Shown: piece after piece, positions 5,919-26,216 of the stretch
Layout: each line of letters begins with the position of its first letter
Numbering within the stretch: position 1 is the stretch's first letter
From: a virus
IMG/VR virus record: IMGVR_UViG_3300003702_000019
Coordinates: 1 to 28,936 of that record
Direction: 5' to 3' (one strand)
Length of the DNA stretch: 28,936 nt
Notes under the pieces: generated by a model
Seen by the model: only the letters and a program-made list of their open reading frames with translations
What the model was told of the DNA's origin: nothing
The model's database searches: none
Made by a program: the position numbers and the translations under genes

Positions 5919-8900
5919 TTATCCTCCTATAATCTCACCTTCATATAACGGTATTGGTTTGCAATCGTCTGTTATATACCAACCGTTTGTATCTTTAACA
6001 AGACCTTCTCCGCTCTCATATAAAAGCGTCACGTTGCCGCCGCCCGCGAGATTATAAACTTTCCATTCATATTTGGCATCGTTACAATTAATTGTAATTT
6101 CCTCATTACCTTCAGCATCAGTATTTGTATTAGTTCCAGTACCCGAAACTCTTGGTCCATCACCATCAATTTGTATATTAAAAGCTATATCAGCGAAATT
6201 CATCACGCTCGTGACATATGTAAATTTTCCTTTCGCGCTGGCGGTTTTACTCCAATCATTATTTTTTGCTAAAATAGTACTACAATTTGTTAATTGTAAT
6301 GTAATAGCAGCTTGTTTGTTTGGCTTGAGTGTAAAGAATTGACTAGCTCCTTCTTTAGATTGTCCGGTTACATCTCCAGTTATAATCCATGTACCGTACT
6401 TTATAATCGGACACCTTATTTTAAGATCATACTCTGAACTTCTGTTTGGAACATTTTGAATTGTGTAAGATTGAACTTCTTTAACAGCGTCATCTGTATT
6501 AGAGCCTCGATTAAATATAAATCGGAATTCAAACCCACCACTAGATCTAGGATTACCTGGGTTTGGAAGTTCGGCTCTGAGCCCTGAATCTTTATCGGAT
6601 GGGAAGTCAGTATCGGCTCCTAGGGTTATATTTGCAGTATTGCCTCCCAGTCCACCACCAATGAACTCATGCCCTTCAATAGTTGCCGGACATTCTCGCC
6701 ATTTGAACGCGGCTGCCCAACCTATGGTGTCTCCACCTACCGGTGGCGTTCCATAGGCTGTATGTATATTGATCCCTGGTTTTATATTTTTACCGCTGAA
6801 AGGCATGCTGGGATCAAAGCTTGGTGGAAGACCTACCGCCATGCCCCAGTCACCACCAACGATACCACCACTAGATCTAGGTTCTCTCTGTCGACGCAGT
6901 AAAAATCTCCCACCATCGGTAGTTATAACTTCCACCCAATCTGGACTATAGTCAGGGTCACTTTTGGCGTTCCCAGCTGACCAATATATAACATTATCTC
7001 CTGTCAACAGCATCCCGTCATAGGCGTCTCGATCAAATATAGTTGCAGTCTGTATAGATGGACCGATGCCCCAAGGATCCCACGTAGAATACCATCCCGA
7101 ACATCCCTCGGCGACTTTAAGAGTCTTTTTGTCTTCCTTTGGGGGGCCAGGTAAGTCACCTATGAGTCTATCTGTATCAATCCCAGTCCATATGGCATCA
7201 AGCTCAATATCAGTTATACTAGGTAGTGCATTACATAGAGATATTCTATCTACAAGTGACTGAATAGTCTGTCTCATTTCAATATCAACAAGACCAGATT
7301 TAAGAGAAATTAAACTTCTTCTTAAATTAGCAGAAGACTCTTCTAAGTAATTTACTGTTTCAACATTCTCTATTTTCTCTGGTGTCTTTCTAGGAGAATC
7401 TATTTGTACTCCGGTGACTTCAAACGATGATAATTCAAAAAAGCTACAATAATCTGATGTTGTAAATGTTAGCCCTACATTTAATGGTTCTATAGTTGGA
7501 GTTACAACCAACGGTTCACCGATATTACCCCATGCATCATAACCTATACAGCCATAAGTACTATTTAAATCTAATTGTAATATTGTATTATAATCAGTAT
7601 CGGTAGTTAATTTATTATATACTGTAATCTGTGTACCTTCGTTAGTTAAATCAACTCTATAATCTTGAAAATCTATATCAGATCCATTGCTTGTAGTTGC
7701 TTCTTCATGCATCGGTACTGGGGCGCCTGGTGAATCAGATAAAGAGATACAGGTTAATACTCTTGTCTGATGTGATCTATTTCCTCGTATACCAACAGAA
7801 CATGGCGCAGTGGTCCATGTATTAACTCCGGTACTATATGCCGAAAGAGCACCAATTTTAGTCTCAGAGGTAGTACAAAAATCTCCTCTTATATCAAACC
7901 CTACACCTAGAAAACTGTCAGCTATATATCCATCCCCAGACCCGATACAACCAGTATTAACAACTAATCCGTGTACCGAGGCGTCATTACCACCTATTTC
8001 ATTACCTACGTTACCTCCAGACGTATAACCTAATGTACTACCTATTCCGTTTGGTTCAACAATACCCTCTGAAGGGTTCTTATAAAAGTATACACAAAAC
8101 CCTGATCCTCCTCCTACAAGTGGAGGAGTTGTTGCATCAGTAACCTTTTCTATCCAACGCATAGCACTAAGTTTGTTTGTTGCTGTTTCAAGAAATCCTT
8201 CAGCTTGTTTAGACCTATATGCAGTCATTGCTGGTACAGTAAAAGATTTAGCTCTAAAATCAACACGAATACTATGTTTAGGATCATATGCTATATATTC
8301 TGGATTTTGTGTAATATATCCACCTGACCATAGTAATGGGAAATTTTTATCTCCTGTTAAATTTAATACAGTAGATGTATGATTATTAATTAAATTAAAA
8401 CCTAAACTATTATTATATTCAACGTGTATTGGTGGGACAAGATAATCTGTTACTCGCTCTTTATTAGTATCTATATATAAATCAGCAAATCTAACTGGAT
8501 TGCCACCTATGATGTAATCAGAATGTACGTATCCGTTTTTAAAAGTAAAGACTGTATTTTCAGCTTTACTCTTAGGAATAAGAATCTTAGAATCTAATAA
8601 ATGAAACCGAGTATCAATGTCTTGAAAAATATAATTTAAAACACCAAACCCATCTGATGTAGCAGTATATTTACCTATAAATGTAACTGAATATCTATCT
8701 GTACTCTTATTGTAGTTTATAAGAGGCTTTGTTATATGTGCAAAATTTGTACCTTCAGAGCACGATGGTAATAATTCATATAAATCAGTTTTTATATCAG
8801 TAACAAATGTAGTTAAGTTTATAGGATATACTAATGATTGATAATTTGTATCTTTGTCGATTTTATATATAATAGGTAATGCACCATATACTATAGTTTC

Positions 8901-9002
8901 TGAACCTTCACATCTCTTACCGGAGATAGAGCTTACTTTACAAACAAACATTTCTCTTGTTTGGTCGTTATAAAATACGTCTGATTGTTTAGTTGTGAAC
9001 AT
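5919..9002 (-). CDS. Large structural protein with legume-lectin-like domain
   Basis: This 1027-residue protein is probably a host-contact part of the baseplate or fibres. Residues about 230-535 carry features of an L-type (legume/bacterial) lectin sandwich: a GFCVYFYKNP strand, then LGVGFDIRGDF with the conserved Phe-Asp, a YRVDLTNEGTQITVY strand and a closing FFELSSFEV strand. Residues about 545-585 look coiled-coil-like. A Trp/Gly/Pro-rich module follows at about 610-830 and is encoded by clearly G+C-richer DNA (about 6510-7170) than its flanks. It contains PRSSGG twice, with a 17-base DNA repeat. The C-terminal 200 residues are beta-rich. The final codons contain the ribosome-binding site of the next gene. 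No enzymatic residues are evident. The lectin call rests on pattern recognition only. Confidence 0.7.
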   Translation of the reverse strand: MFTTKQSDVFYNDQTREMFVCKVSSISGKRCEGSETIVYGALPIIYKIDKDTNYQSLVYPINLTTFVTDIKTDLYELLPSCSEGTNFAHITKPLINYNKSTDRYSVTFIGKYTATSDGFGVLNYIFQDIDTRFHLLDSKILIPKSKAENTVFTFKNGYVHSDYIIGGNPVRFADLYIDTNKERVTDYLVPPIHVEYNNSLGFNLINNHTSTVLNLTGDKNFPLLWSGGYITQNPEYIAYDPKHSIRVDFRAKSFTVPAMTAYRSKQAEGFLETATNKLSAMRWIEKVTDATTPPLVGGGSGFCVYFYKNPSEGIVEPNGIGSTLGYTSGGNVGNEIGGNDASVHGLVVNTGCIGSGDGYIADSFLGVGFDIRGDFCTTSETKIGALSAYSTGVNTWTTAPCSVGIRGNRSHQTRVLTCISLSDSPGAPVPMHEEATTSNGSDIDFQDYRVDLTNEGTQITVYNKLTTDTDYNTILQLDLNSTYGCIGYDAWGNIGEPLVVTPTIEPLNVGLTFTTSDYCSFFELSSFEVTGVQIDSPRKTPEKIENVETVNYLEESSANLRRSLISLKSGLVDIEMRQTIQSLVDRISLCNALPSITDIELDAIWTGIDTDRLIGDLPGPPKEDKKTLKVAEGCSGWYSTWDPWGIGPSIQTATIFDRDAYDGMLLTGDNVIYWSAGNAKSDPDYSPDWVEVITTDGGRFLLRRQREPRSSGGIVGGDWGMAVGLPPSFDPSMPFSGKNIKPGINIHTAYGTPPVGGDTIGWAAAFKWRECPATIEGHEFIGGGLGGNTANITLGADTDFPSDKDSGLRAELPNPGNPRSSGGFEFRFIFNRGSNTDDAVKEVQSYTIQNVPNRSSEYDLKIRCPIIKYGTWIITGDVTGQSKEGASQFFTLKPNKQAAITLQLTNCSTILAKNNDWSKTASAKGKFTYVTSVMNFADIAFNIQIDGDGPRVSGTGTNTNTDAEGNEEITINCNDAKYEWKVYNLAGGGNVTLLYESGEGLVKDTNGWYITDDCKPIPLYEGEIIGG
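6535..6551. repeat. 17-bp direct repeat, copy 1 (PRSSGG)
   Basis: CCACCACTAGATCTAGG occurs here and again at 6865-6881 in the same gene. Both copies encode PRSSGG on the minus strand. It contains the palindrome CTAGATCTAG. Confidence 0.5.
6865..6881. repeat. 17-bp direct repeat, copy 2 (PRSSGG)
   Basis: This is the second copy of the CCACCACTAGATCTAGG repeat, about 330 bases from the first, within the G+C-rich module of the lectin-like gene. Confidence 0.5.
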
Positions 9003-9019: not shown

Positions 9020-11320
9020 TTAAGTGCTCAAAACTAGAGTCTTAGAGCTTGCATTAACTTTAAAAATATTTTCATCAAATTTATATTTTTCAGTTACAGT
9101 TTCAGCTGATGTTTGTATGTATATTGTGTTTTCTATAATATCAAAATCTATAATATTACTTGTTGATAATATATTAGATTTTGTGTTACCCGTATTGTGC
9201 TTGTTGAACACATTAACAAACGCTGTTGAGAGTGGTTCTATTAATTGTGTTCCTACATTTCGTATATAAATTTCACCAGCACTTACATATTGTTGATCAA
9301 ATAAATATACTGCGCTAGTAGCAAAATTATTAAGTGAAGTGCTTTCATATGTAGTTGCATTGTTAGTATAAATAGCTGTTGTATCTATTGTAAAATATGG
9401 TACAGTTGTATCTTGGAAATTTATTGAAATTAAATCTGTTGAATGTCCAGGATGGCCTATAAAAGAACCACAATCAATAGCTGATACAGCTGATATAGAT
9501 CCACATGATAAGGCTTGTGCATGTAAGATATCACAAGAACCACCTACACCTGCGTCAAAATCAGTTAATGGTGCAGTAAATGCATCAGCAGCTCCACCAT
9601 CACAAAGAGTATTATTACTTACTATAAATGTATCATATACTCCAGTGACACTGGTATATAACGTTCCTGATACTTCATACTCTGCAGCAGATATAGCAGA
9701 TAAAAGAGGCTCAAAAAATAGACCATCGTAATATTCAGCTGCAGTAATACACATACTAGTTGTTGTTGTTACTGATATATGATCAGCATCTGCAAGCCTT
9801 TTAGGATATACAGATTTTACAAAATAAAATTCATTACCATATATATCGTTTTTTAATTTTATTCCAGTTTTATTATGTATTAATAAATCATCTAATCGAG
9901 TTACTTCTGGATATACATTTAAATTCTCTATTGGATATGTATCTATATTTTTCCATGTTACGTGTTTAGCATCATCCCCCCAAAAACTAATAGTATCTTC
10001 TTTTTTATTAATACCTGTAAATGAATAGTCTAAGCTATTTTCCTTACTTTGATATCCATAATTACGTAATAATTTATTATTATAAACGTTAACTCCTGGG
10101 CTTATATTATCGTTTTTAAATTGGGCATTTTTTGCTTTAAAGTCTAATGGCGCTTTACGTTTTCTATGTATATTTTTAATTAATTTTCCTGTAGTACTGT
10201 CTTTGATAATACCAACACTTTTAACACCTGATTCAAATTTAGACGGGTCTGGTATAATATATTCTGCTCCTTGGAGACCAGTTAAATTTACTGTATAAGT
10301 TAAATTGCTCGAATAAAACGGAACAAGCCCTGTATTAGAAAAAGATAGTTGATGTGGATAAATCTCGTTATGTTTAATATTGATTAATTGTAAAAATGTA
10401 TTTGGATTGTATCTCTGAGAGAGATTATTTGTTGTATTGGTATGCTCATATAATTTGTTTACTTTTTTTGCAAGACTATTTAAATAGTATAGATCATTTG
10501 AAATATATTTTTCTGTTAAATCTTTTTCTAAAGTAAAAATTAAATTTTCTATTGTTTTAGTTTCACCTCTAAAATATCTTCCCGGTAACCTACCATAATT
10601 GGTAAATGATTGATTAATACCTAATATACTATTAGGGGAAGATATATTATCTATTCTTATTTTACGTGTACCACCCGCTGTATTAACAGATAATACTTGA
10701 ATGATATTAGGTATCTCTCTTAGAACTCTATTAGGTATATTTAAAACAAGATCTTTATCTACTTTGTGAATATTATATACAAATTCATCTGAAGCATATG
10801 TATTTAAATTAATTTGTATATTATTTGATATTTTTTGTATATTAATATCTTTAACTAAAGTATCTGTCTTTTCAGTAACAAACTCTTTATTAACAAGTAG
10901 TCTTGTTATAAAATTTTTAAGGTATTTTGTTATACCTAGTTTCGACGATTTGAGTTTATTTTTTATTTTAGTAAATTTAATCTCTTCTCTTACACTACGT
11001 ATATTTTTTAATTGTTCTTTTATTACAGTACTATAATAATGAGTCGCTAATTCTAATTCATAAATATCATTTGTATCAATACGGTTGAGAAATGTAACAA
11101 TATGTTTGTCTAATGTACTTAAATTTATATTCTTTAAAAATTGTGTGTATATTGTTTTAGTATAGTCAGTATTAGTTTTATCTTTTGCTACTTTTTTCTC
11201 TTTCCAGTCAGTAAGATAATTATTATATAGTGTGGGTAATTCAGACGCATCAAAAGAACTCTCGTAGTGGGCTTTCCACTCTTTATATGATAATGGATTA
11301 TGTGTATGTTGCGTTATCAT
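9020..11320 (-). CDS. Baseplate-associated structural protein (T4-like phage type)
   Basis: This 766-residue protein begins with a helical, Lys/Tyr-rich region (NPLSYKEWKAHYESSF, then TLYNNYLTDWK) of a kind I recall from structural proteins next to gp6 in marine T4-like phages. This suggests an internal wedge or inter-wedge role at the N-terminus. Residues about 457-465 are KNIDTYPIE, encoded by a 27-base sequence repeated exactly in the tube-like gene at 27087-27113. Residues about 525-625 contain five cysteines, unusual in this set. The last 130 residues are beta-rich with a propeller-like strand pattern. The gene's ATG overlaps the neighbourhood of the upstream stop by a single base, so the two are tightly coupled. 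The precise role is unassigned. Confidence 0.65.
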   Translation of the reverse strand: MITQHTHNPLSYKEWKAHYESSFDASELPTLYNNYLTDWKEKKVAKDKTNTDYTKTIYTQFLKNINLSTLDKHIVTFLNRIDTNDIYELELATHYYSTVIKEQLKNIRSVREEIKFTKIKNKLKSSKLGITKYLKNFITRLLVNKEFVTEKTDTLVKDINIQKISNNIQINLNTYASDEFVYNIHKVDKDLVLNIPNRVLREIPNIIQVLSVNTAGGTRKIRIDNISSPNSILGINQSFTNYGRLPGRYFRGETKTIENLIFTLEKDLTEKYISNDLYYLNSLAKKVNKLYEHTNTTNNLSQRYNPNTFLQLINIKHNEIYPHQLSFSNTGLVPFYSSNLTYTVNLTGLQGAEYIIPDPSKFESGVKSVGIIKDSTTGKLIKNIHRKRKAPLDFKAKNAQFKNDNISPGVNVYNNKLLRNYGYQSKENSLDYSFTGINKKEDTISFWGDDAKHVTWKNIDTYPIENLNVYPEVTRLDDLLIHNKTGIKLKNDIYGNEFYFVKSVYPKRLADADHISVTTTTSMCITAAEYYDGLFFEPLLSAISAAEYEVSGTLYTSVTGVYDTFIVSNNTLCDGGAADAFTAPLTDFDAGVGGSCDILHAQALSCGSISAVSAIDCGSFIGHPGHSTDLISINFQDTTVPYFTIDTTAIYTNNATTYESTSLNNFATSAVYLFDQQYVSAGEIYIRNVGTQLIEPLSTAFVNVFNKHNTGNTKSNILSTSNIIDFDIIENTIYIQTSAETVTEKYKFDENIFKVNASSKTLVLST
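9926..9952. repeat. 27-bp perfect repeat, copy 1 (KNIDTYPIE)
   Basis: The 27 bases encoding KNIDTYPIE on the minus strand are identical to 27087-27113, about 17 kb away, in another structural gene and in the same reading frame. Flanking residues differ (WKNIDTYPIEN here, LKNIDTYPIES there). Confidence 0.75.
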
Positions 11321-14235: not shown

Positions 14236-16091
14236 TAATATTCGACTATAGCTTTACTCTTTATAACACTTGTAACTGTAATTTTACTCTTAAATTCAGC
14301 CTCGCTTTCTATATACGGAATTTGATATGGTTTTAATTTTAAACTCGTGTCAATAAACTTTATATCTTTTCCGTTATATACAGGGTTATATACACATAAT
14401 GATAATCCTGGTATTTTAATATTTGGTGTTATATCAGTTCGAACTGTATTAAATTCAACTATTCCTTTAATACCTTCAATATCATTGTTCATGTCTCTTA
14501 CATTTATTGTATCACCAAGTTTAAGCTGTTTGATATAGGTATTAATTACATTAAATACTTTTGATTTTAAATCCTCTTCATTCACTAATGATCTTGCTTC
14601 TCTTACTAATTGTAACTCTGTAGTGTCCTTGTATGATACTTTTTTAGGCTCTCCTGATGCTTTAAATGATAAATCTATATTTAAATATACTGGATCAATA
14701 AAAGAAATCTCACTGTTCAATAGTTTATAATTTTCAATTTCATTTTGAATTTTTTCTTTTAATGAGTTCGGTAGGTAATTAGATCGAGTTACAACAGATT
14801 TATTTTTTCGTAACTTCGGAACAATGCTTAAATATATATTATTAGCATCAGCGCTATCAGCGTAATAATACTGGTTAAATAGTGCATTTGTGTCTTGCGT
14901 AAAATCAGTTAATCCTAGATCATTATTAATATATTTTAAATAATCATTTACATAATCACTATTATTCAGTACAGTAACATCATATATAAGATTTTTATAA
15001 TTACGATCTATAAAAGTCTTATAATCTGCTTTTGTAGTTAATCTATATTCTGAACTAAAAAATCTTGGAGCGTTTTGTTTAATTTCTGCTGTAGTTTCTT
15101 CAACGCCAAATTCAGTACTATCCTCTGTATTACTAAGTGTAATACCTGTTGCATTTTCTATAGTTATATAGTTAAGTGACGTATCTTTTATATCTGTAAA
15201 GATTTGATCATATTGAGTAGTATTATAAACATTTAATGAAGTTGCATTCAATGTATTACTTGAAACTTTTCCTCTAGTACCTGAAGATTTTAAATAGTAT
15301 ATTGCAATTGAATCTCCTAGGTTTAATTTTGTCCCATTTACACTATTACCGAATTTAATTTCATATTTTTTATTTTCATTATAAGTAACTTCAAAATGTC
15401 TATCATTTGGTTTTGATAAAAATAAACTAGGTATTCTATTCCATTGATGCCATTTATTTTCTTCATTTACTTCTTTTACAAAAACAAAAATATTAAAATG
15501 ATCTATAATCGTATTATCCCCAGGTAAAAGATTTATAGTTTCGAATTTTTCTCCTATTGGGAATAATATTGGATACTCCTCTATAGTACCTTCATATGCT
15601 AGTGAATTGTCAATAGATTTAACTACTTCAGCAGTACTAGTTAATTTTTCGAATGTTAAGTCTTGAACTAGTGAGAATGTTTGACCTCCACCAGTCACAA
15701 AGGCGAATTTTGGTATAGTATAATATCCGATACTTAAAGCAGCTTTTGCGGATACGTTTATCGGTAAAATGCATGATTGTTTGCCGATCGGTTTATATCC
15801 TATTAGTTTTACTATTCGATTTATATTTTCATATAGTTCTGCATCCGCAAAATTACTCTCAGCACTTGTTTGATTTAAATAAAATAATAATGTATGATAT
15901 GAGTATGCAATTATATCTATGAGTGCGGAGATGTTACTACCTTCAAAATTTTGATCTGTAAAGTTAATAGTCTTATCGTTGTTAAGACGACTAATAATTA
16001 GATCGCGCATACTCTGGGCATCAAACCCTGTATATGCATTTGTCGGTAAATTAAATTCCGTTAAATTAGATCTGGTTGTGTGTTGACTCAT
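14235..16091 (-). CDS. 6: Baseplate wedge protein gp6-like (Baseplate_J superfamily)
   Basis: In T4, gp6 forms the continuous wedge ring of the baseplate. This 618-residue protein is close to the T4 length of about 660. The N-terminus has the typical opening of the marine gp6 group: FDAQSMRDLIISRL, FTDQNFEGSNISALIDIIAY, a long helix ending LFYLNQTSAESNFADAELYE, and NINRIVKLIGYKP. The middle is the beta-rich baseplate-J-like part (SIAIYYLKSSGTRGKVSSNT and APRFFSSEYRLTTKADYKTFI, a hallmark of the family). The C-terminal quarter (LREARS-type helix, LKLGDTINVRDMNNDIEGIKGI) matches the gp6 C-terminal arm. It starts three bases after gp25, as in many T4-like genomes. The assignment is from recognisable motifs and context. 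Confidence 0.85.
   Translation of the reverse strand: MSQHTTRSNLTEFNLPTNAYTGFDAQSMRDLIISRLNNDKTINFTDQNFEGSNISALIDIIAYSYHTLLFYLNQTSAESNFADAELYENINRIVKLIGYKPIGKQSCILPINVSAKAALSIGYYTIPKFAFVTGGGQTFSLVQDLTFEKLTSTAEVVKSIDNSLAYEGTIEEYPILFPIGEKFETINLLPGDNTIIDHFNIFVFVKEVNEENKWHQWNRIPSLFLSKPNDRHFEVTYNENKKYEIKFGNSVNGTKLNLGDSIAIYYLKSSGTRGKVSSNTLNATSLNVYNTTQYDQIFTDIKDTSLNYITIENATGITLSNTEDSTEFGVEETTAEIKQNAPRFFSSEYRLTTKADYKTFIDRNYKNLIYDVTVLNNSDYVNDYLKYINNDLGLTDFTQDTNALFNQYYYADSADANNIYLSIVPKLRKNKSVVTRSNYLPNSLKEKIQNEIENYKLLNSEISFIDPVYLNIDLSFKASGEPKKVSYKDTTELQLVREARSLVNEEDLKSKVFNVINTYIKQLKLGDTINVRDMNNDIEGIKGIVEFNTVRTDITPNIKIPGLSLCVYNPVYNGKDIKFIDTSLKLKPYQIPYIESEAEFKSKITVTSVIKSKAIVEY
15784..15791. repeat. CCGATCGG palindrome in gp6
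   Basis: The octamer encodes Pro-Ile-Gly (KPIGKQ) in the N-terminal region of gp6. The same gene encodes another PIG tripeptide (FPIGEK) with the A+T-rich codons CCA-ATA-GGA, so the octamer is not demanded by the peptide. Confidence 0.5.
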
Positions 16092-16622: not shown

Positions 16623-17144
16623 ATGAGTACGTTCGATACATTATTTGAAGAACAAATTGGTCAGTTTACTAAACCAGGTCCGGTTGCTGGAGATTATGTT
16701 AAGTTAAAGAGTAATTTAAAATCATCTGATTGGTATAAAGGGTTAGACGAGGCTCGTAAAAATTACGTACAAGAGATTTTAACTTTAGTTGAACAAGGTA
16801 AATATATTATGCTTTCTACAACTAAACGAGAAGCTTTCGATGTAAGAAGTGCTAATCAACCTGCATCTACAGATCCTACTACTTGGAGTGTCGCTGATAT
16901 AGTTGTTGAAGTTAATCCTGGCTTTTTCTCACATACGTTAAGTCTCCCAGTAGATCTTCTTGAGTTTGATATGTCATGGGCTGAGGCACGAGGAACACGT
17001 CCAGTTCAGGGTGATCAAGGAGAGGTTGACTTAAAGCCTAAAGATGTAGAAGATAAAGTAGTTGATTTAGGTCAGCAAACTAAAGTACCTGATGGTAATT
17101 ATAAGCTAGGGACTGCAGATTATATGCAATCCTCAAATTTGTAA
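16623..17144 (+). CDS. Hypothetical protein, acidic, plus-strand
   Basis: This 173-residue protein is not recognised. It has a helical N-terminal half (LDEARKNYVQEILTLVEQGKYIML), a beta-rich middle (WSVADIVVEVNPGFFSHTLSLPVDLLEFD) and an acidic, Gln/Asp-rich C-terminus (about 130-173). No cysteines, membrane segments or known catalytic motifs appear. It is transcribed alone, opposite to its neighbours. A late-promoter-like element precedes it and an intrinsic terminator follows 67 bases after its stop. Its end overlaps the gp44 end by 12 bases in opposite orientation. A late promoter would suggest a virion or late-function role. Confidence 0.65.
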   Translation: MSTFDTLFEEQIGQFTKPGPVAGDYVKLKSNLKSSDWYKGLDEARKNYVQEILTLVEQGKYIMLSTTKREAFDVRSANQPASTDPTTWSVADIVVEVNPGFFSHTLSLPVDLLEFDMSWAEARGTRPVQGDQGEVDLKPKDVEDKVVDLGQQTKVPDGNYKLGTADYMQSSNL

Positions 17145-18041
17145 ATCAAGTATACAGGAATAGAAGTTGATCTCTTGATCTATACACTGACTATTCTGAT
17201 AAAAGTATTTAGAGACTGTAATTAGACAGTCTCTTTTTGTTTCTTCAGGCATGAGGTTTACATACATATAATCAAACAAACGTTTGAATAATTCATCGTA
17301 ATCATTATTAAACAATGATTCATTTTCAATAATTTGGTTGCGAATTAAAAAATATTTCTTTTGCTTTAATAATTCTATTAGCCCATTAAAAAAATCATTT
17401 GTAAAGTTATTATTAATTTCCTTTCCACCTGAAAGATGATATTTTTGAAGCGCGTTAATACCTTTACGGAAATCTGGATAACAATTATCTATAATTTTAG
17501 TAAAGTGCTCTTTATTTATTTTCATTTCTTCAGCTTTTACAATAGTAATAAGCTGAGTAATATATTCATTTTTATCACAACTAATATCAAATACTTGACA
17601 TCTACTTTGTAAAGCTGGGATAATTTTATGTTTGTAATTTGCAGTAAGAACAAATCTTGTTAAGTCGTGATATTCTTCTATCGAATTGCGTAGCGCTTTT
17701 TGGGCATCAATAGATAATCCATCACACTCGTCAAGTATTATAACCTTAATTTGCCCAAAGAGACTCTTTGTCTGCGCGAAGTTTAAAACTTTTGTACGGA
17801 TTGTATCTATTCCGTTTTCATCTGATGCGTTTATATACAAATATTGGCATTTAAGAATATCCTTTACAATAATTTTAGCTAAAGAAGTTTTACCTATACC
17901 GGGCTTACCTACAAATAAAACATTAGGTATATTTTGTTCTGTTTGTACTTTATTAAAATAAGTCTTAGTACTTTCATCTAAGACTATTTCATTTAAAGTA
18001 CTCGGTCGATACTTTTCACACCAGATATCAGAAATTGTCAT
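17133..18041 (-). CDS. 44: Clamp-loader large subunit, gp44-like AAA+ ATPase
   Basis: gp44 with gp62 loads the gp45 sliding clamp on DNA for replication and, in T4, for late transcription. This 302-residue protein (T4: 319) shows EKYRPSTLNEIVL at the N-terminus, Walker A GKPGIGKTS (about 45-53), Walker B IILDECD (101-107), sensor 1 LTANYKHKI (about 132-140) and the SRC arginine-finger motif (146-148). The C-terminal collar domain follows with the sensor-2-like DFRKGINALQK. All key residues are intact. The ATG overlaps the dUTPase stop as ATGA, so the two genes are translationally coupled. The TGA stop lies inside the end of the convergent gene 16623-17144. A plus-strand terminator hairpin is embedded in its coding sequence. 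Confidence 0.93.
   Translation of the reverse strand: MTISDIWCEKYRPSTLNEIVLDESTKTYFNKVQTEQNIPNVLFVGKPGIGKTSLAKIIVKDILKCQYLYINASDENGIDTIRTKVLNFAQTKSLFGQIKVIILDECDGLSIDAQKALRNSIEEYHDLTRFVLTANYKHKIIPALQSRCQVFDISCDKNEYITQLITIVKAEEMKINKEHFTKIIDNCYPDFRKGINALQKYHLSGGKEINNNFTNDFFNGLIELLKQKKYFLIRNQIIENESLFNNDYDELFKRLFDYMYVNLMPEETKRDCLITVSKYFYQNSQCIDQEINFYSCILDLQI
17211..17238 (+). terminator. Intrinsic terminator of the plus-strand gene 16623, inside gp44
   Basis: AGAGACTGT, loop AATTAG, ACAGTCTCT form a perfect 9-bp stem followed by a T-run (17234-17238). It lies 67 bases after the plus-strand gene's stop and entirely inside the gp44 coding region, where it encodes RDCLITVS. It has a T-tract in the plus orientation only. 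Confidence 0.65.
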
Positions 18042-18593: not shown

Positions 18594-19073
18594 ATGGATG
18601 ACTTTAATCCAGATGATTTAATATCACAATTAAAAACTGTACCAAAAGCTAGTAAGCAGTTAGTACAACAATCAGAGAAATTTAATATTTCTAAAGACGA
18701 GGTTGAAGATTTTATTATTCAAAAATCATCAAAATTAATTGAAGATTCTTTAGAATTAATAGATAATATGAAAGAGGTAGTTCATCATATGCCTGAAGCA
18801 GAGAATGTTTCTTCGCTTGCTGAACTTATTAAAGCGTCTACAGGCGCCATAGAAACATTAAACAAATTAGTAGTACAAGACAAAAGGTCAAATACAACTC
18901 TAAAAGCAAAACAATTGGATATAGATTCTAGAAAAGAACTTCAAGACGCTGATCAGCAACATGCATTAATGTTAAGTAGAGAAGAAGTTCTTGATCGTTT
19001 ATTGAAAGATTCAAAAATAATTAATGTAGATACAAAAGTTGGTGACGTAGATAAAATAGAGTCTACGCCTTAA
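18594..19073 (+). CDS. Coiled-coil protein, possible small terminase (gp16-like)
   Basis: This 159-residue protein is highly helical and acidic. A central segment (VSSLAELIKASTGAIETLNKLVVQDKR, about 75-101) has the layout of the T4 gp16 central coiled-coil that oligomerises into a ring (gp16 is 164 residues). N- and C-terminal arms flank it, as in gp16. In T4-like phages gp16 marks packaging substrates for gp17. The large terminase is not in the window, so context neither proves nor excludes this. Alternatively it is an unrelated coiled-coil assembly factor. It is transcribed alone on the plus strand and its end overlaps the opposing 364-residue gene by 11 bases. Confidence 0.6.
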   Translation: MDDFNPDDLISQLKTVPKASKQLVQQSEKFNISKDEVEDFIIQKSSKLIEDSLELIDNMKEVVHHMPEAENVSSLAELIKASTGAIETLNKLVVQDKRSNTTLKAKQLDIDSRKELQDADQQHALMLSREEVLDRLLKDSKIINVDTKVGDVDKIESTP

Positions 19074-20157: not shown

Positions 20158-21575
20158 GCTTTTTCTTTGTCTAATTGACTACAAACTAAAAATGTATTAA
20201 ACCCACCGTTAACAGTTAATGTAGTTGTATTTTGTAATATAAACCAAAGTCCAGATACTCTTCTCATAAAATCATTAGCTGGAATTCCACCTAATTCTAT
20301 TCCTATAAATTTCCCGCTAGAGGGAAAGAGGTTACCTGGTATAGTGAATGATACTCTATCAGCTGATTGAATTAATTTTGATTGTAAACTAATTTTACCT
20401 AAAAATTCTGAATTATTAGAGTTTTCATATACCATTCGTTGATTTTTATTTGCTATTGTTATATTATTTTTTTCTATATTAGCTTCTCTCGTTTCTCCAT
20501 ATGGGTAGTATGAAATAGTATCATTAAAAGTTTTCTTTAAATTATGAACTGATCCATGATTATTATAAAGTTTAAATGATTTATTTTTTGTATTATAAGA
20601 CGCTATAGAATGATTTACTATTTCATCAACAGCTGCATCAGGGTTTTTTGGATAAAATTGTACTTTAGAAATATGCACCGGTATTAATTGATATTTGTTA
20701 CTAAAATATGATGCGGTTTGACTGCTTGTATAATAAGATCTATTATCGTTAATTTCTATTTTTATAGCAGCAGTAGGCATACTTTCATTTTTAAAAATAT
20801 TAGTTAATGATAATAATTTAAATTTACCGGCATGGCGGTATAATAGTCCCATATCATTATGATCTTTTGAAACATATTTGGACATTAACTCACTTAATGC
20901 GTCAATCGGCGCTTGATTCATCTGTAATGAGTATGTAGTTTTTGATATACTATCATCCCATTTATTTTTATTAATAATACTATCAGTATCATTTTTGTCC
21001 TTACTACAAAAAGTAACTAATAAATCTAATATTGCATCACTAACATATACTTGCTTATCAACATCACTTAATTGCGATGAATTTGTTTGATTACTCGTTG
21101 ACCATGGCATTCTATTATAATATAATGATCCGAATTCTACATCTGCAAAATAGTAATTTAACATCGGTGTATTACCTGTCATAGATTCTGTAATTCTTTT
21201 TACAATAAAGGTTTTATTTAATATTACAAGTTGGTCAGTTCTTACAGCATTTATTTGTTGTTTTATACGAATATGTATAAACTCTCCACCAGTCCCAGTT
21301 GTATCATAGTTTGTATTTATAGCATGATTGCCAAGCGCTGGTTTTAGCTTATTTTGTTGTTCGTGTTCTATTAATTGTAAATGACCTATAACAAATGGAG
21401 TCGTATACACGGATTCAAATACAATTTTACTAAATTCAGTTTTATTAATGGTTTTCGTTTGACCTGTATCGTTTATAAATCTTATTGATACAAAGAAATC
21501 TGTACCATTTGCATTTATAACAAACGTACTTTCTGATTTACTTTCTGATAATATAGTAGATACAGCTGGTGTCAT
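20154..21575 (-). CDS. Baseplate hub protein, gp27-like candidate
   Basis: This 473-residue protein probably forms part of the central hub through which the tube passes. The segment PIDALSELMSKYVSKDHNDMGLLYRHAGKFKLLSL (quoted in part: ALSELMSKYVS and GKFKLLSL, about 230-265) has the layout seen in gp27-like hub proteins of T4-like phages, where a helix precedes a strand-turn-strand reporting on the structure. The rest is beta-rich, as expected of the two tube-like barrel domains. T4 gp27 is 391 residues. It overlaps both neighbours as ATGA (gp53 upstream, the 364-residue protein downstream). The gp27 label is inferred from pattern and order, not from a profile match. Confidence 0.65.
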   Translation of the reverse strand: MTPAVSTILSESKSESTFVINANGTDFFVSIRFINDTGQTKTINKTEFSKIVFESVYTTPFVIGHLQLIEHEQQNKLKPALGNHAINTNYDTTGTGGEFIHIRIKQQINAVRTDQLVILNKTFIVKRITESMTGNTPMLNYYFADVEFGSLYYNRMPWSTSNQTNSSQLSDVDKQVYVSDAILDLLVTFCSKDKNDTDSIINKNKWDDSISKTTYSLQMNQAPIDALSELMSKYVSKDHNDMGLLYRHAGKFKLLSLTNIFKNESMPTAAIKIEINDNRSYYTSSQTASYFSNKYQLIPVHISKVQFYPKNPDAAVDEIVNHSIASYNTKNKSFKLYNNHGSVHNLKKTFNDTISYYPYGETREANIEKNNITIANKNQRMVYENSNNSEFLGKISLQSKLIQSADRVSFTIPGNLFPSSGKFIGIELGGIPANDFMRRVSGLWFILQNTTTLTVNGGFNTFLVCSQLDKEKA

Positions 21576-21943
21576 TGTCTTAATTGTTGATTAATTTCAG
21601 CTAATATTCTACTAACTAAATCCGGTCTTATTAATTTATACACTTTACCTACGACTGGATTGTCTGTTGGGTTTTGTATTTTATTAGTACAACATATTAA
21701 CCACCATAGATCTTGAGTACCATATACTGTATGCGCAAATGTTGTCCACGGCATGTTTGATGTTATAAATTTTTCAAAATATATATCTTCCCCAATATCA
21801 TCTGGAAATGAAATTTTCTTTATAATATTATAAAAAAAATACTCATCTGCTTTTGCCATGTTAAAGATGTTTTCATATTGAGTTTCTAATATTGGAAATA
21901 ATCCTTTTACTTTATCGCGTGTTGATTGTAAGTCTGTAATCAT
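21572..21943 (-). CDS. 53: Baseplate wedge protein gp53-like
   Basis: gp53 is one of the three inner wedge proteins (with gp6 and gp25) conserved in contractile tails. This 123-residue protein contains WTTFAHTVYGTQDLWWLICCTNKIQNPTDN (about 65-95; key residues Tyr-Gly, Asp-Leu-Trp-Trp and the NP), a signature of gp53-like wedge proteins, followed by VGKVYKLIRPD, the typical LysM-like end. It is shorter than T4 gp53 (196 residues). It lies between the gp48-like and hub genes; its TGA overlaps the hub ATG. No strong Shine-Dalgarno precedes it, only an AATAATTAATT tract. Confidence 0.8.
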   Translation of the reverse strand: MITDLQSTRDKVKGLFPILETQYENIFNMAKADEYFFYNIIKKISFPDDIGEDIYFEKFITSNMPWTTFAHTVYGTQDLWWLICCTNKIQNPTDNPVVGKVYKLIRPDLVSRILAEINQQLRQ

Positions 21944-21952
21944 AATAATTAA

Positions 21953-22225
21953 TTATTTGGTCGGACCCTTCCAGCCAAAATTAGGGTCGTCTGGAATATC
22001 TTCATAGTATGGTTCAACATCAGTTCCCATCACCGGCACATGCGATTTGTTGTAATCTTTACGTTTTGCTTCCGAGGAAGTATATATATCAGATGTAACC
22101 GGACTATCAATACTATCGTACATTAAATTTTTAGTCTCAGGTATAAGGCTAGTTATTGTTAATTGTACTTCAAATCCTTCTGGCATAATAACAGTACTCA
22201 GTCGAGCGCCTTCACCGACGATCAT
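21953..22225 (-). CDS. C-terminal part of the gp48-like gene, out of frame
   Basis: These 90 residues look like the C-terminus of a larger tube/baseplate protein rather than an independent gene. The frame is open 58 codons upstream of the first ATG, back to a TAG at 22400-22402. The extra stretch (LPNRINHSAITPPVIYQSS, then LPGVFSYRWSYLSKLIVNFI) flows naturally into this part (MIVGEGARLSTVIMPEGFEV, then LTITSLIPETKNLMYDS), a strand pattern typical of T4-like tube-fold C-termini. The frame is -1 relative to the upstream 22333-23316 part. AAGGAGACC lies 11 bases before the ATG, so separate translation from 22225 is possible. Without the upstream half, function is doubtful unless the two pieces assemble. 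Confidence 0.6.
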   Translation of the reverse strand: MIVGEGARLSTVIMPEGFEVQLTITSLIPETKNLMYDSIDSPVTSDIYTSSEAKRKDYNKSHVPVMGTDVEPYYEDIPDDPNFGWKGPTK

Positions 22226-22332
22226 TTTTCTCGGTCTCCTTGTACCTATAAAATTAACAATTAATTTACTTAAATAGCTCCATCTATAACTAAAGACACC
22301 TGGCAGCGATGATTGATATATAACAGGAGGTG

Positions 22333-23316
22333 TTATTGCAGAATGATTAATTCGGTTTGGTAAGTTTTGATATAAAAGTAAATAAGTAAATATATCAATC
22401 TATAATTTTTTTCAGCATGTGAAACACCATCTATTACAGTATTATCGAGAAAGAAGTTAACATCATGACTCGGTCCTGAATCAGGATAATTATATGATTT
22501 TGCTAAGTCGACACCTACTGCTGGTGACGCTAATTTTAATAAATCACCTATTTTAGAAATCGTTTGTGTAACCATTCCACCAGTATCGTTGCCCCATGAA
22601 TTAGATATTTGTTTGTAATTATCTTCAAGATACGGTAATCGATATAAAAAGTTTGTTGGATTTACACCATAAATATTTTCATATTCTTTTAAGTAATCAG
22701 CCCAATTCCATAATGTATTATTTAGTGCCCCGAATTTAAATTTTTCAAATTCTTTTTTTAAGGTCTTCATATTCTCTTGTAGATTACCAGTGAATTCAAG
22801 GAATTGATTACTAGATATAAAATTTGTAATAAGATTAGCTTTTGGTTGTGGAGATGGTACGTCTAGACTTAATGCTGCTACTCTTTCGGCGTGATTAGTT
22901 ACAGCGTGTAAATTATTTTCTAAGGCAGTTGAGTCTGATGTTGCTGATTGATCTGTTAGACTTCTTAAAGCATTATTTGTCATAGGAACTATACCGTTCT
23001 TTCCAACAATTTGATTTAACATAGTTGTCATGTTATGAAAAAACGCAGGAGATACTACTTGCATTTCTCTTAAAGTAATCGTTGGAGTATTTTCTACAGT
23101 GATAGAAGTTAGTGCTGATTTTGTCCACCGGAATTGTTTAACTATATTAATATCTCTCGTTACACCCGGTGATGGGACTGGTACTTTTGCTGCGTACTCT
23201 CCAGTTTGGTTTTGTTGTATAACGCTTTGTATTAATTCAGTAGCACCACCTGTATCACCTGTCGGTTTATTAGGTGTAGGTTGTACAAATTTATATAATA
23301 TATCGTTTGCTCCCAT
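22333..23316 (-). CDS. 48: Tail tube/baseplate junction protein, gp48-like, N-terminal part
   Basis: In T4, gp48 caps the hub and starts the tail tube; its gene follows the tape-measure gene 29, as this one follows the tape-measure candidate. I chose ATG 23316 (MGANDILYKFVQ) because it is preceded by AGGAAAATAATT and starts just after the preceding stop; an earlier ATG at 23394 would overlap that gene by 68 bases. The protein is 327 residues here but ends in an unlikely hydrophobic tail after residue about 305 (LIYLLIYFYIK). The missing C-terminus is encoded in the -1 frame (22399-21953), giving about 450 residues in total if joined. A single-base deletion between 22399 and 22336 would explain it. 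The gp48 label rests on order and fold style. Confidence 0.65.
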   Translation of the reverse strand: MGANDILYKFVQPTPNKPTGDTGGATELIQSVIQQNQTGEYAAKVPVPSPGVTRDINIVKQFRWTKSALTSITVENTPTITLREMQVVSPAFFHNMTTMLNQIVGKNGIVPMTNNALRSLTDQSATSDSTALENNLHAVTNHAERVAALSLDVPSPQPKANLITNFISSNQFLEFTGNLQENMKTLKKEFEKFKFGALNNTLWNWADYLKEYENIYGVNPTNFLYRLPYLEDNYKQISNSWGNDTGGMVTQTISKIGDLLKLASPAVGVDLAKSYNYPDSGPSHDVNFFLDNTVIDGVSHAEKNYRLIYLLIYFYIKTYQTELIILQ

Positions 23317-23326: not shown

Positions 23327-25534
23327 CTAAATATTTCCTTTAGGCGCATACCCCGGCGCCCATCCATTTTTTCTATTTTGTCTACCACCCTCAAAACTTT
23401 TGTTCACCGGGTCGGCGTTATCTAAAATTATCATTGCCGCAGGACCGGATGCTGGAGTTCCCTTGTATTCCTCCATCTTCCGCAAAATTTCATTAGTTAT
23501 TTGTTGCTCGCTCAAGATATTTTTTTGACCCTCTGTGTTAGATGTAATTTGAGCTTTAATAGCAGTTTCGTAAAACTCTTTTGGAGTTTCTCCTCCTTTT
23601 CCAGCTCCAAAACCTCCAGCGACCCAATCACCCTCTTCTGCTTTCAGTTTAGCGGCCGCGGCGCCTTCTTTGATTTTGTCCATATCCATTCCCATTTCTT
23701 CTGCAGCTCGTCTTGCTTCCTCAGCAGGAGCAATCCATGCTCTTGATCCCTCTACCACAGCCGACCCGCCTTCATATTTCATAGCCGTGCCACGAGAGTC
23801 ACTTCCTTCCGTTTTTCTTGCTTTTTTAGCATTATCACTTTTAGCTCTTGGCAAGACCACCTGGCTATATAAATTATTCAATTCCGGAAGAGTTGCATTA
23901 TCATATAATTCATTCTCTGTCCATACTCTTCCAATAAATTCTTTACCATCACTTAAGTGTAAAATCTTATTAATCATTCTATGTTTTTCTTGATTATCTC
24001 GCGTTATCAGCCGGACATCATCGTCTTTTAATACTCTCGTATAGCTCGCTATTTGTGCATTTCTTCTTATTTGGTCTGCAGTGAGTGACGACTTCTGGGC
24101 GAGCATTCCCGATAGGCCGGTGTGTCCAGCCATGTTCCCGGTGCGCTTGGCATTTATAGTTTTTGGATTCGCGGCGATAAATTGCTTTGCATCAAGAAAT
24201 AGTCCGGTTTCTGGGTCTTTTACTATAAGACCAGCTTGTTTACTTTTTAAAGCTCCTTGTTTCAGTTTAGTTTGGGCTGCAAGTTCACGTTCGATTTGTG
24301 TATCAGTAAACCAATCTTCAATGACATCAGCTAACAACATATCAGCAATTTGATATATTGTATATGCCCATAATCCAATTGTTATTGGGGCGCCGGCTCC
24401 TCCTGTTCCAGCAGCAATACCAATACCTTGAATAGCTCGAGCTGCTATTAATGCGGCTGCGCGCTTGGCTACGCCTCTACTAGCGCCGTTTCTAATAGCA
24501 TCCTTAGCAGCTATGACAAATGATCGCTTACCTACTCTACCGAATTTTGGATCTTTTTTAATGGCATTCCAAAGGCGTCGAAATGAATCAGCTGATGATG
24601 TACCTGGTACAGTTGGAACGCGCGGGATATTCGGTCGGATACCGGCGGCGACTGCTCCACCAAAACGTTGAGCGCCTCTATTTAACCAAGATCTAGCACC
24701 GATCACTCCTGCAAATCTACCACCAGCTAAAGTACTACCTCTATTTATTGCCGATCCCATTCCACCACCGTAAGCCCATTTTGCAGCGCCTAATGCTTTT
24801 CCACCGCCCCATAATGCTCCTCTACCAGCAAGTTTTGCTCCTGCCCATAACGGTTTTCTTCCAAGATAAGCACCAGCTCCGATCCCAGCTGTTGTCCAGG
24901 GATTATCTAACATCCAATCTGTTGGAGCGCTAAACCCTTTTCCACCTTCCGGTCCAAACGCGAGTTTTTGCAGATTCGCACCGGCGAGCATTTGTCTTAG
25001 AGTATCAGGATTCATCATACCACCGCCAGCGATCAAGCTTAATAGAAGTTTATTATCCCATAACGACCTCATTGGTTTAAAAGCAAGTGCTCCGCCAATG
25101 GCTGATTTAATTGGATTTCGTACTAACCAACTTCCTCCCATTTTATTAATAGCTCTTGTTATTCTTTGTTCTGATCTTCCTGTATTATCATAAGTGTCCC
25201 CTTTAAGGCGGCGACTCCCTGGGTCCATCTTTTCTAACATTCTAGTTTGACTAGCAGTTAATTTATTGGTCTTTTTTATTGCTTCAGATACACCACCTAA
25301 TGTTTCATTTAGTTTACCTAGCACTTCTTCAGTTTTTGATGCAGCTTTACCGAGATTGCCAATTTTAGTATCTAAGTCATTTATGGTTTTTTTCGGGATC
25401 GCATCACCGGCCATCTTATCTATTTTGTCAGTTAAAGAAGAATTAATGCTTCCCTGACTTTCTACAAAGGTGCCTAAAGCCTTCGCCTGGTTTGCAACAG
25501 CTTCAACAAGTCTACTAAACGATACATCATCCAT
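23327..25534 (-). CDS. Probable tail tape-measure protein
   Basis: A tape measure sets tail length and occupies the tube lumen. This 735-residue protein has an N-terminal coiled-coil region (about 20-115, with heptad-like SLTDKIDKM and NETLGGVSEAIKKTNKL), then Gly/Ala-rich hydrophobic segments at about 145-180 and 355-400 (the latter IAARAIQGIGIAAGTGG), and a Lys/Glu-rich C-terminus. Hydrophobic Gly/Ala runs amid helices are typical of tape measures. Its length would suit a tail of roughly 100 nm. It follows the gp26/gp51-like pair, and the gp48-like gene comes next, as around T4 gene 29. The DNA is strikingly G+C-rich in places (24601-24660 is 37 of 60 by hand count). Confidence 0.65.
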   Translation of the reverse strand: MDDVSFSRLVEAVANQAKALGTFVESQGSINSSLTDKIDKMAGDAIPKKTINDLDTKIGNLGKAASKTEEVLGKLNETLGGVSEAIKKTNKLTASQTRMLEKMDPGSRRLKGDTYDNTGRSEQRITRAINKMGGSWLVRNPIKSAIGGALAFKPMRSLWDNKLLLSLIAGGGMMNPDTLRQMLAGANLQKLAFGPEGGKGFSAPTDWMLDNPWTTAGIGAGAYLGRKPLWAGAKLAGRGALWGGGKALGAAKWAYGGGMGSAINRGSTLAGGRFAGVIGARSWLNRGAQRFGGAVAAGIRPNIPRVPTVPGTSSADSFRRLWNAIKKDPKFGRVGKRSFVIAAKDAIRNGASRGVAKRAAALIAARAIQGIGIAAGTGGAGAPITIGLWAYTIYQIADMLLADVIEDWFTDTQIERELAAQTKLKQGALKSKQAGLIVKDPETGLFLDAKQFIAANPKTINAKRTGNMAGHTGLSGMLAQKSSLTADQIRRNAQIASYTRVLKDDDVRLITRDNQEKHRMINKILHLSDGKEFIGRVWTENELYDNATLPELNNLYSQVVLPRAKSDNAKKARKTEGSDSRGTAMKYEGGSAVVEGSRAWIAPAEEARRAAEEMGMDMDKIKEGAAAAKLKAEEGDWVAGGFGAGKGGETPKEFYETAIKAQITSNTEGQKNILSEQQITNEILRKMEEYKGTPASGPAAMIILDNADPVNKSFEGGRQNRKNGWAPGYAPKGNI

Positions 25535-25559: not shown

Positions 25560-26216
25560 TCAATAAAAAGAAGTTATATCAGCCTCTTGTTCTCTTATAA
25601 GATTAATATCTTGTAATACTTCTGATAATTTTTTTGTTATTTGTTGAAGGTGATTTATACTAAGAAGTTCGAATAATTTAAAAAAATCTTCTATAGATAC
25701 ATTCTCGATTAAGAATGCTTGTTCTCCTATCTTGATAGAATGAATAAAACGAAACATATCAAAAAATATAATAGACATACGTCCTGTTTTAGCTATTGGT
25801 TGATCTAATAGAAATTGTAATATTTTGTTTTCATGTAAAACATTAGATTGTTTAAATTGTATGGTTACAAGTGTATCGTTAAGTTGTAATTCAATTTCTG
25901 TTTTATCAAGTGTATCTATTACATTAAGTTTTAATTCTTCATCAAATTCAGCTTCGACATCAGATAGCCAATAATTAAGAATGTATAATTTATCTTTATA
26001 TGTAAAATTATAATCTCTATATAATGAACATATGTGTTCATTTATATAAAGAATGTAGCGTAAAACAGCAATATAATCATTTTCACTTTGCTCTACTTGT
26101 GTATGTAATGCGGATTGAAATTCAACGTTTAATTTATTAATTGTAATTTCTCCACCGTCCGGTAAAGTAATTTTGCTTGTACATATTTCTTGAAATTTAT
26201 TAAGTAAGCTGTTCAT
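25560..26216 (-). CDS. Baseplate hub assembly protein, gp26-like candidate
   Basis: This 218-residue protein has the size and layout of T4 gp26 (208 residues), which with gp51 acts in hub and tape-measure assembly. It starts with LLNKFQEICTSKITLPDGGEITINKL, a strand pair followed by a helical body rich in Leu/Ile/Asp and ending SINHLQQITKKLSEVLQDI. In T4-like phages this family (T4_baseplate) begins similarly with a short lipophilic beta hairpin. It overlaps the upstream gp51-like gene by 17 bases and is followed by the tape-measure candidate. The assignment is by length, composition and neighbours, so moderate confidence only. Confidence 0.55.
   Translation of the reverse strand: MNSLLNKFQEICTSKITLPDGGEITINKLNVEFQSALHTQVEQSENDYIAVLRYILYINEHICSLYRDYNFTYKDKLYILNYWLSDVEAEFDEELKLNVIDTLDKTEIELQLNDTLVTIQFKQSNVLHENKILQFLLDQPIAKTGRMSIIFFDMFRFIHSIKIGEQAFLIENVSIEDFFKLFELLSINHLQQITKKLSEVLQDINLIREQEADITSFY

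Follow-up and report, generated by a model that had tools for sequence, protein, structure and literature searches.

Layout of the interrupted gene

The window analyzed here is the whole 28,936-nucleotide stretch of viral DNA (IMG/VR record IMGVR_UViG_3300003702_000019, positions 1 to 28,936), and the interrupted gene, a tail-building gene of an uncultured phage, lies on its minus strand. The features at the locus are listed with the evidence on which each assignment rests; L001 is the closest relative of the gene.

21572..21943, minus strand: adjoining gene, intact, probable baseplate wedge subunit (weak PHROG profile match, E 2e-4)
21953..22399, minus strand: C-terminal part of the gp48-like gene, 148 codons read in the -1 frame, start codon absent before 22225 (homology, frame analysis)
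22223..22225, minus strand: first ATG of the -1 frame, opening a 90-aa ORF at 22225-21953 (ORF list, alignment)
22333..23316, minus strand: N-terminal part of a gp48-like baseplate tube-cap gene (ORF; homology to residue 313 in relatives)
22367..22398, minus strand: inverted repeat TTGATATA ... TATATCAA flanking the duplication (sequence; same arms in L001)
22376..22391, minus strand: 8-bp tandem duplication ATTTACTT ATTTACTT (exact match and alignment with five relatives)
23327..25534, minus strand: upstream neighbour, intact, a long protein in the tape-measure position (role from position only)

The frame 0 ORF at 23316-22333 encodes 327 aa, from an ATG at 23316 to a TAA at 22335-22333. The -1 frame is preceded by a TAG at 22402-22400 and stays open from 22399 as far as a stop ending at 21953; its first ATG, at 22225, comes after 58 open codons. 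The two frames share 64 nt, and the shift zone is 22399-22336. An A7 run at 22412-22406 and an AAAA run at 22368-22365 were both located on the minus strand. On each of these points (the coordinates, both frames, the 58 codons and the positions of the two runs) the ORF list and the sequence agree with an earlier, sequence-only reading of this DNA.

The N-terminal part stays in frame to ~22392 and then runs into a 19-codon out-of-frame tail (YLLIYFYIKTYQTELIILQ region) that ends at the TAA; in the alignment, relatives have no counterpart of this tail. The C-terminal part is 79% identical to L001 and is under purifying selection. It is improbable that the ATG at 22225 is the gene start, because it lies inside a conserved domain. 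A peptide across NYRLIYLLLYQNLPNR would mark the full-length form, and the truncated form would end in TYQTELIILQ.

Relatives of the gene and the 8-bp duplication

With the C-terminal part as query we collected 24 relatives from IMG/VR, and a wider profile scan gave 78 loci. In each of the first 24 whose contig extends over both parts, the tblastn matches to the N-terminal part (to residue 313) and to the C-terminal part (from residue 4-6) overlap and share a frame, and both parts lie inside one ORF of ~370-510 codons from stop to stop. The gene of intact relatives has ~450-460 codons. Three of the 78 loci are cut by contig ends and were left out of the junction count; the remaining 75, which represent 70 distinct sequences, span the junction and are all continuous in one frame, and among them we found neither a homologue organized as two genes nor one that ends like the 327-residue form. 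These comparisons indicate that the ORF at 23316-22333 and the -1-frame continuation at 22399-21953 are one gene for one protein, and they bear out the earlier proposal that a change to the -1 frame within 22399-22336 splits a single gene. When either part or an intact relative was used as a tblastn query against 50,697 phage records, no annotated phage relative was recovered, nor were relatives of the gene found in bacterial or archaeal genomes; the clade of this phage thus appears to be one without annotated isolates.

An alignment with homologues, which the sequence-only reading had proposed as a check, puts the N- and C-terminal parts in one frame and reveals a feature that it had missed, a perfect 8-bp tandem duplication at 22391-22376 (the register is ambiguous by 1 nt, 22392-22376). 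Each of five relatives is exactly 8 nt shorter at the break, as shown by a gap of this length in the DNA alignment opposite the two copies of ATTTACTT. L001 has GATTGATATATTTACTTTTATATCAAAA where the window has GATTGATATATTTACTTATTTACTTTTATATCAAAA, and the DNA is otherwise near-identical. The window therefore has 8 extra nt, which place the downstream part in the -1 frame, and the duplication at 22391-22376 is, as judged from this alignment, what changes the frame (+8 nt = -1 frame).

About 0.8 perfect 8-bp tandem repeats per window are expected by chance and 2 are observed. The repeat by itself is thus not rare, and the telling evidence is the gain of 8 nt over the relatives exactly at the frame break. 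Two other perfect tandem repeats were considered as signs of a duplication-prone record and set aside: the one at 21527-21549 shows no length gain over relatives, and the one at 15159-15174 sits in an intact ORF. An exact pattern scan of IMG/VR, which misses variants and from which the window's own record was excluded, found no second record with the duplication.

The duplication is enclosed by a weak stem (z -2.9 for a 61-nt stretch), and of three stretches tested around the site, two have an ordinary fold. In L001 the arms TTGATATA and TATATCAA enclose an 8-nt loop without the insert, so the stem is no evidence for recoding. The stem site may nonetheless be prone to mutation or to low coverage, since polymerase stalling there would make a duplication, or alternatively a gap in coverage, more likely.

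Predicted fold, selection and neighbouring genes

We modelled the protein of the intact relative L001 with AlphaFold, using 14 sequences; confidence is moderate, with a pLDDT of 54 overall and ~70-85 in the core. The model has a tail-tube (gp19-like) fold with C-terminal strands. Its first-ranked Foldseek match is chain BE of the T4 baseplate-tube complex (5iv5_BE; E 1.1e-3, prob 1.00), with which it aligns over 154 residues at 4.1 A (VIA Z 9.4). The best 20 VIA rows are all baseplate or tube initiator proteins, and several of the BFVD matches are named gp48 or baseplate tail tube cap. In T4, the tube grows on a platform formed by gp48 (39.7 kDa) and gp54 (35.0 kDa) (PMC3004832). We take chain BE to be gp48 rather than gp54, because its numbering reaches 358, which fits the mass of gp48.

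The genomic surroundings are those of a baseplate cluster. The adjoining gene at 21572-21943 matches wedge profiles (E 1.7e-4 to 2e-4), 14235-16091 matches Gp6-like proteins below the cut-off, and 25560-26216 weakly matches a baseplate hub. An AAA+ clamp loader (gp44-like) is also found within the cluster, at 17133-18041 on the minus strand, with 37% identity to gp44 of the T4-like cyanophage P-SSM2. Profile searches of PHROGs (with 14 relatives) and Pfam gave no match to known gp48 families, and no meaningful sequence match came from the PDB. The gp48-like identity given to the gene by the sequence-only reading is therefore supported by predicted fold and genomic place, and not by sequence membership. 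The window gene resembles T4 gp48 (PDB 5iv5 chain BE) in the fold predicted for L001 and in its place within a baseplate cluster, where a gp53-like wedge gene adjoins it; its family differs from T4 gp48 in length (~450 aa versus ~364) and in sequence, and in this record the gene is interrupted.

On the L001 model, the break falls in a helix at residues 303-316, and tube-fold strands 332-390 are missing from the short form. With the loss of these strands, the short form would not be expected to work.

The first 50 codons after the break would stay untranslated unless recoding corrects it, and we compared their selection with that in intact relatives. Between the window and L001 there are 7.5 nonsynonymous and 15.5 synonymous differences (dN/dS 0.094); the corresponding dN/dS is 0.081 for the window and L002, and 0.130 for the intact pair L001 and L002. 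The stretch after the break thus shows purifying selection similar to that among intact relatives, with no sign of decay in these codons. Amino-acid change is not in excess on the window's side, so the break is either of very recent date, or corrected, or not real.

The other genes of the window are uninterrupted and collinear with those of relatives, and no comparable break was found among them, which argues that this is neither a decaying genome nor an error-ridden record. The 735-aa upstream neighbour (23327-25534, minus strand) appears to be fast-evolving, matching only the closest relative among those fetched (39% identity to L028). Two short plus-strand ORFs, at 16623-17144 and 18594-19073, lie among the minus-strand genes; their place and opposite orientation are kept in all relatives examined, at 57-87% identity. 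Neither has a family match in PHROGs or one above the Pfam cut-off, and their conservation indicates that both are real genes.

Origin of the frame break

The sequence-only reading had kept open programmed -1 ribosomal frameshifting, by which the gene would make a short and a long tube-cap protein. The overlap of 64 nt and the change to the -1 frame are compatible with such a mechanism, but the overlap contains no X_XXY_YYZ heptamer, and the only in-frame heptamer nearby, A_AAA_AAT at 22411-22405 in the A7 run, precedes the -1 TAG at 22402-22400. A slip there would run into that TAG, just as the sequence-only reading had noted, and the heptamer is not conserved (L001 has GAG AAA AAT). A slip would also leave extra residues relative to all homologues, and the fold around the site, ordinary in most of the stretches tested, lends no help. 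With no sign of frameshifting in any of the 75 junction-spanning relatives, none of which ends like the short form, we regard programmed short and long forms as very improbable. The loss of one base from the AAAA run at 22368-22365, another suggestion of that reading, can be given next to no credence. Restoring one base would rejoin the frames arithmetically, but the run is identical in L001, L002 and L003 (CAAAA in TATCAAAA; L001 has TATCAAAATTTACC), none of which has an extra base, so a base was not lost there. All five aligned relatives keep the AAAA run or an in-frame equivalent, and the window instead has 8 nt too many, ~10-25 nt upstream of it. A split into two working genes, of 327 aa and of 90 aa from the ATG at 22225, is likewise very hard to credit. 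An AAGGAG ~10 nt before this ATG could act as a ribosome site, but it belongs to conserved codons for GTRRP, and in the predicted fold the ATG maps within the C-terminal strands. Moreover, the 58 codons from the break to the ATG, which would be in neither protein, show the strongest conservation within the gene (dN/dS 0.09).

A further reading is translational bypassing, in which ribosomes hop 8 nt between the repeat copies (from one UUA or CUU to its copy, for instance) and make the full-length protein. Take-off and landing codons match anywhere in the repeat, the product would equal that of relatives through YLLLYQNLPNR, the downstream part is under selection, and a weak stem encloses the repeat. 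However, any tandem duplication yields matched codons, which makes these a trivial consequence of an 8-bp repeat, and a duplication only a few generations old would leave the same purifying selection. Bypassing of T4 gene 60 is reported to owe its efficiency to a stop after the take-off codon, a KKYK nascent peptide and a Shine-Dalgarno at the landing site (PMC5009743). None of these is present in the window: frame 0 continues with ATT TAC TTT TAT to a first stop at 22335, the upstream peptide is PSHDVNFFLDNTVIDGVSHAEKNYRLIYLL, of the same kind as in relatives that lack the insert, and no Shine-Dalgarno precedes the landing site. The likeness to gene 60 lies in two out-of-frame coding parts of one protein and an insert flanked by matching codons; the difference is that the insert there is 50 nt (PMC5009743), versus 8 nt here, and that here the stimulatory features are absent and the insert is unique to one record. 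Because the insert is not kept in related phages (75 of 75 spanning relatives are free of it), a bypass would need to be both new and instantly efficient. We therefore give the hop a slim chance, and a slightly slimmer one to its use by host ribosomes as a very short, freshly evolved bypass element that would let the phage cope with the duplication in an essential tail gene. If the hop were real, it would add to a very small set of natural bypass elements and be the shortest of those in phage structural genes.

Since the gene is whole in every relative checked, an ordinary sequence error or a fresh mutation is most likely. We thus favour, with a probability of about 0.9, a non-programmed frame break in this one record by an exact 8-bp tandem duplication, arising from a recent mutation or an assembly join. 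The duplication at 22391-22376 breaks the frame, and the gene as it stands would yield a truncated protein of 327 residues in which the last third, with the C-terminal tube-fold strands, is missing. The break is very recent or not real: either the sampled molecules carried a fresh mutation, or an assembly join left an 8-bp overlap in place twice, and two contigs joined in this way would give exactly the sequence seen. We infer that the break is left uncorrected in translation, and likewise the choice between these two origins. An assembly artefact has roughly even odds and a recent mutation somewhat under even, with little left for anything besides these. It is just as possible that the duplication is real and belongs to a minor or dead genome. 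The two leading options of the sequence-only reading are retained. The duplication itself, its absence in relatives and the intact selection downstream are shown directly.

Some observations sit uneasily with a non-programmed break. One would hardly expect a dead mutation to sit in an essential tail gene when the rest of the 29-kb record is intact, and matched codons 8 nt apart could in principle let a hopping ribosome make the relative-like peptide. Short-read assemblers do not usually produce 8-bp duplications without read support. As a recoding case, the locus is ordinary: it does not differ from other small frame-breaking tandem duplications, whether by mutation or artefact, having the same exact head-to-tail copy of 8 nt and a gene and neighbours that are otherwise intact. 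When a single metagenome record is taken by itself, a tidy tandem duplication of 8 bp can thus mimic a programmed frame shift, and caution is warranted; relatives resolve such a case at once.

Assembly blemishes do occur in this collection, since a scaffold gap of 10 N in a sister record (G005/L031, ~8709-8718) shifts the frame in the homologue of the window gene at 9020-11320. The frame change at ~8709 of that record was considered as biology and rejected, being this gap of N.

A further length difference was seen in the homologue of the window gene at 5919-9002. In L034 (G007, ~2216-2814), ~600 bp appear to lie between matched parts that are 12 residues apart in the window gene, a possible domain insertion.
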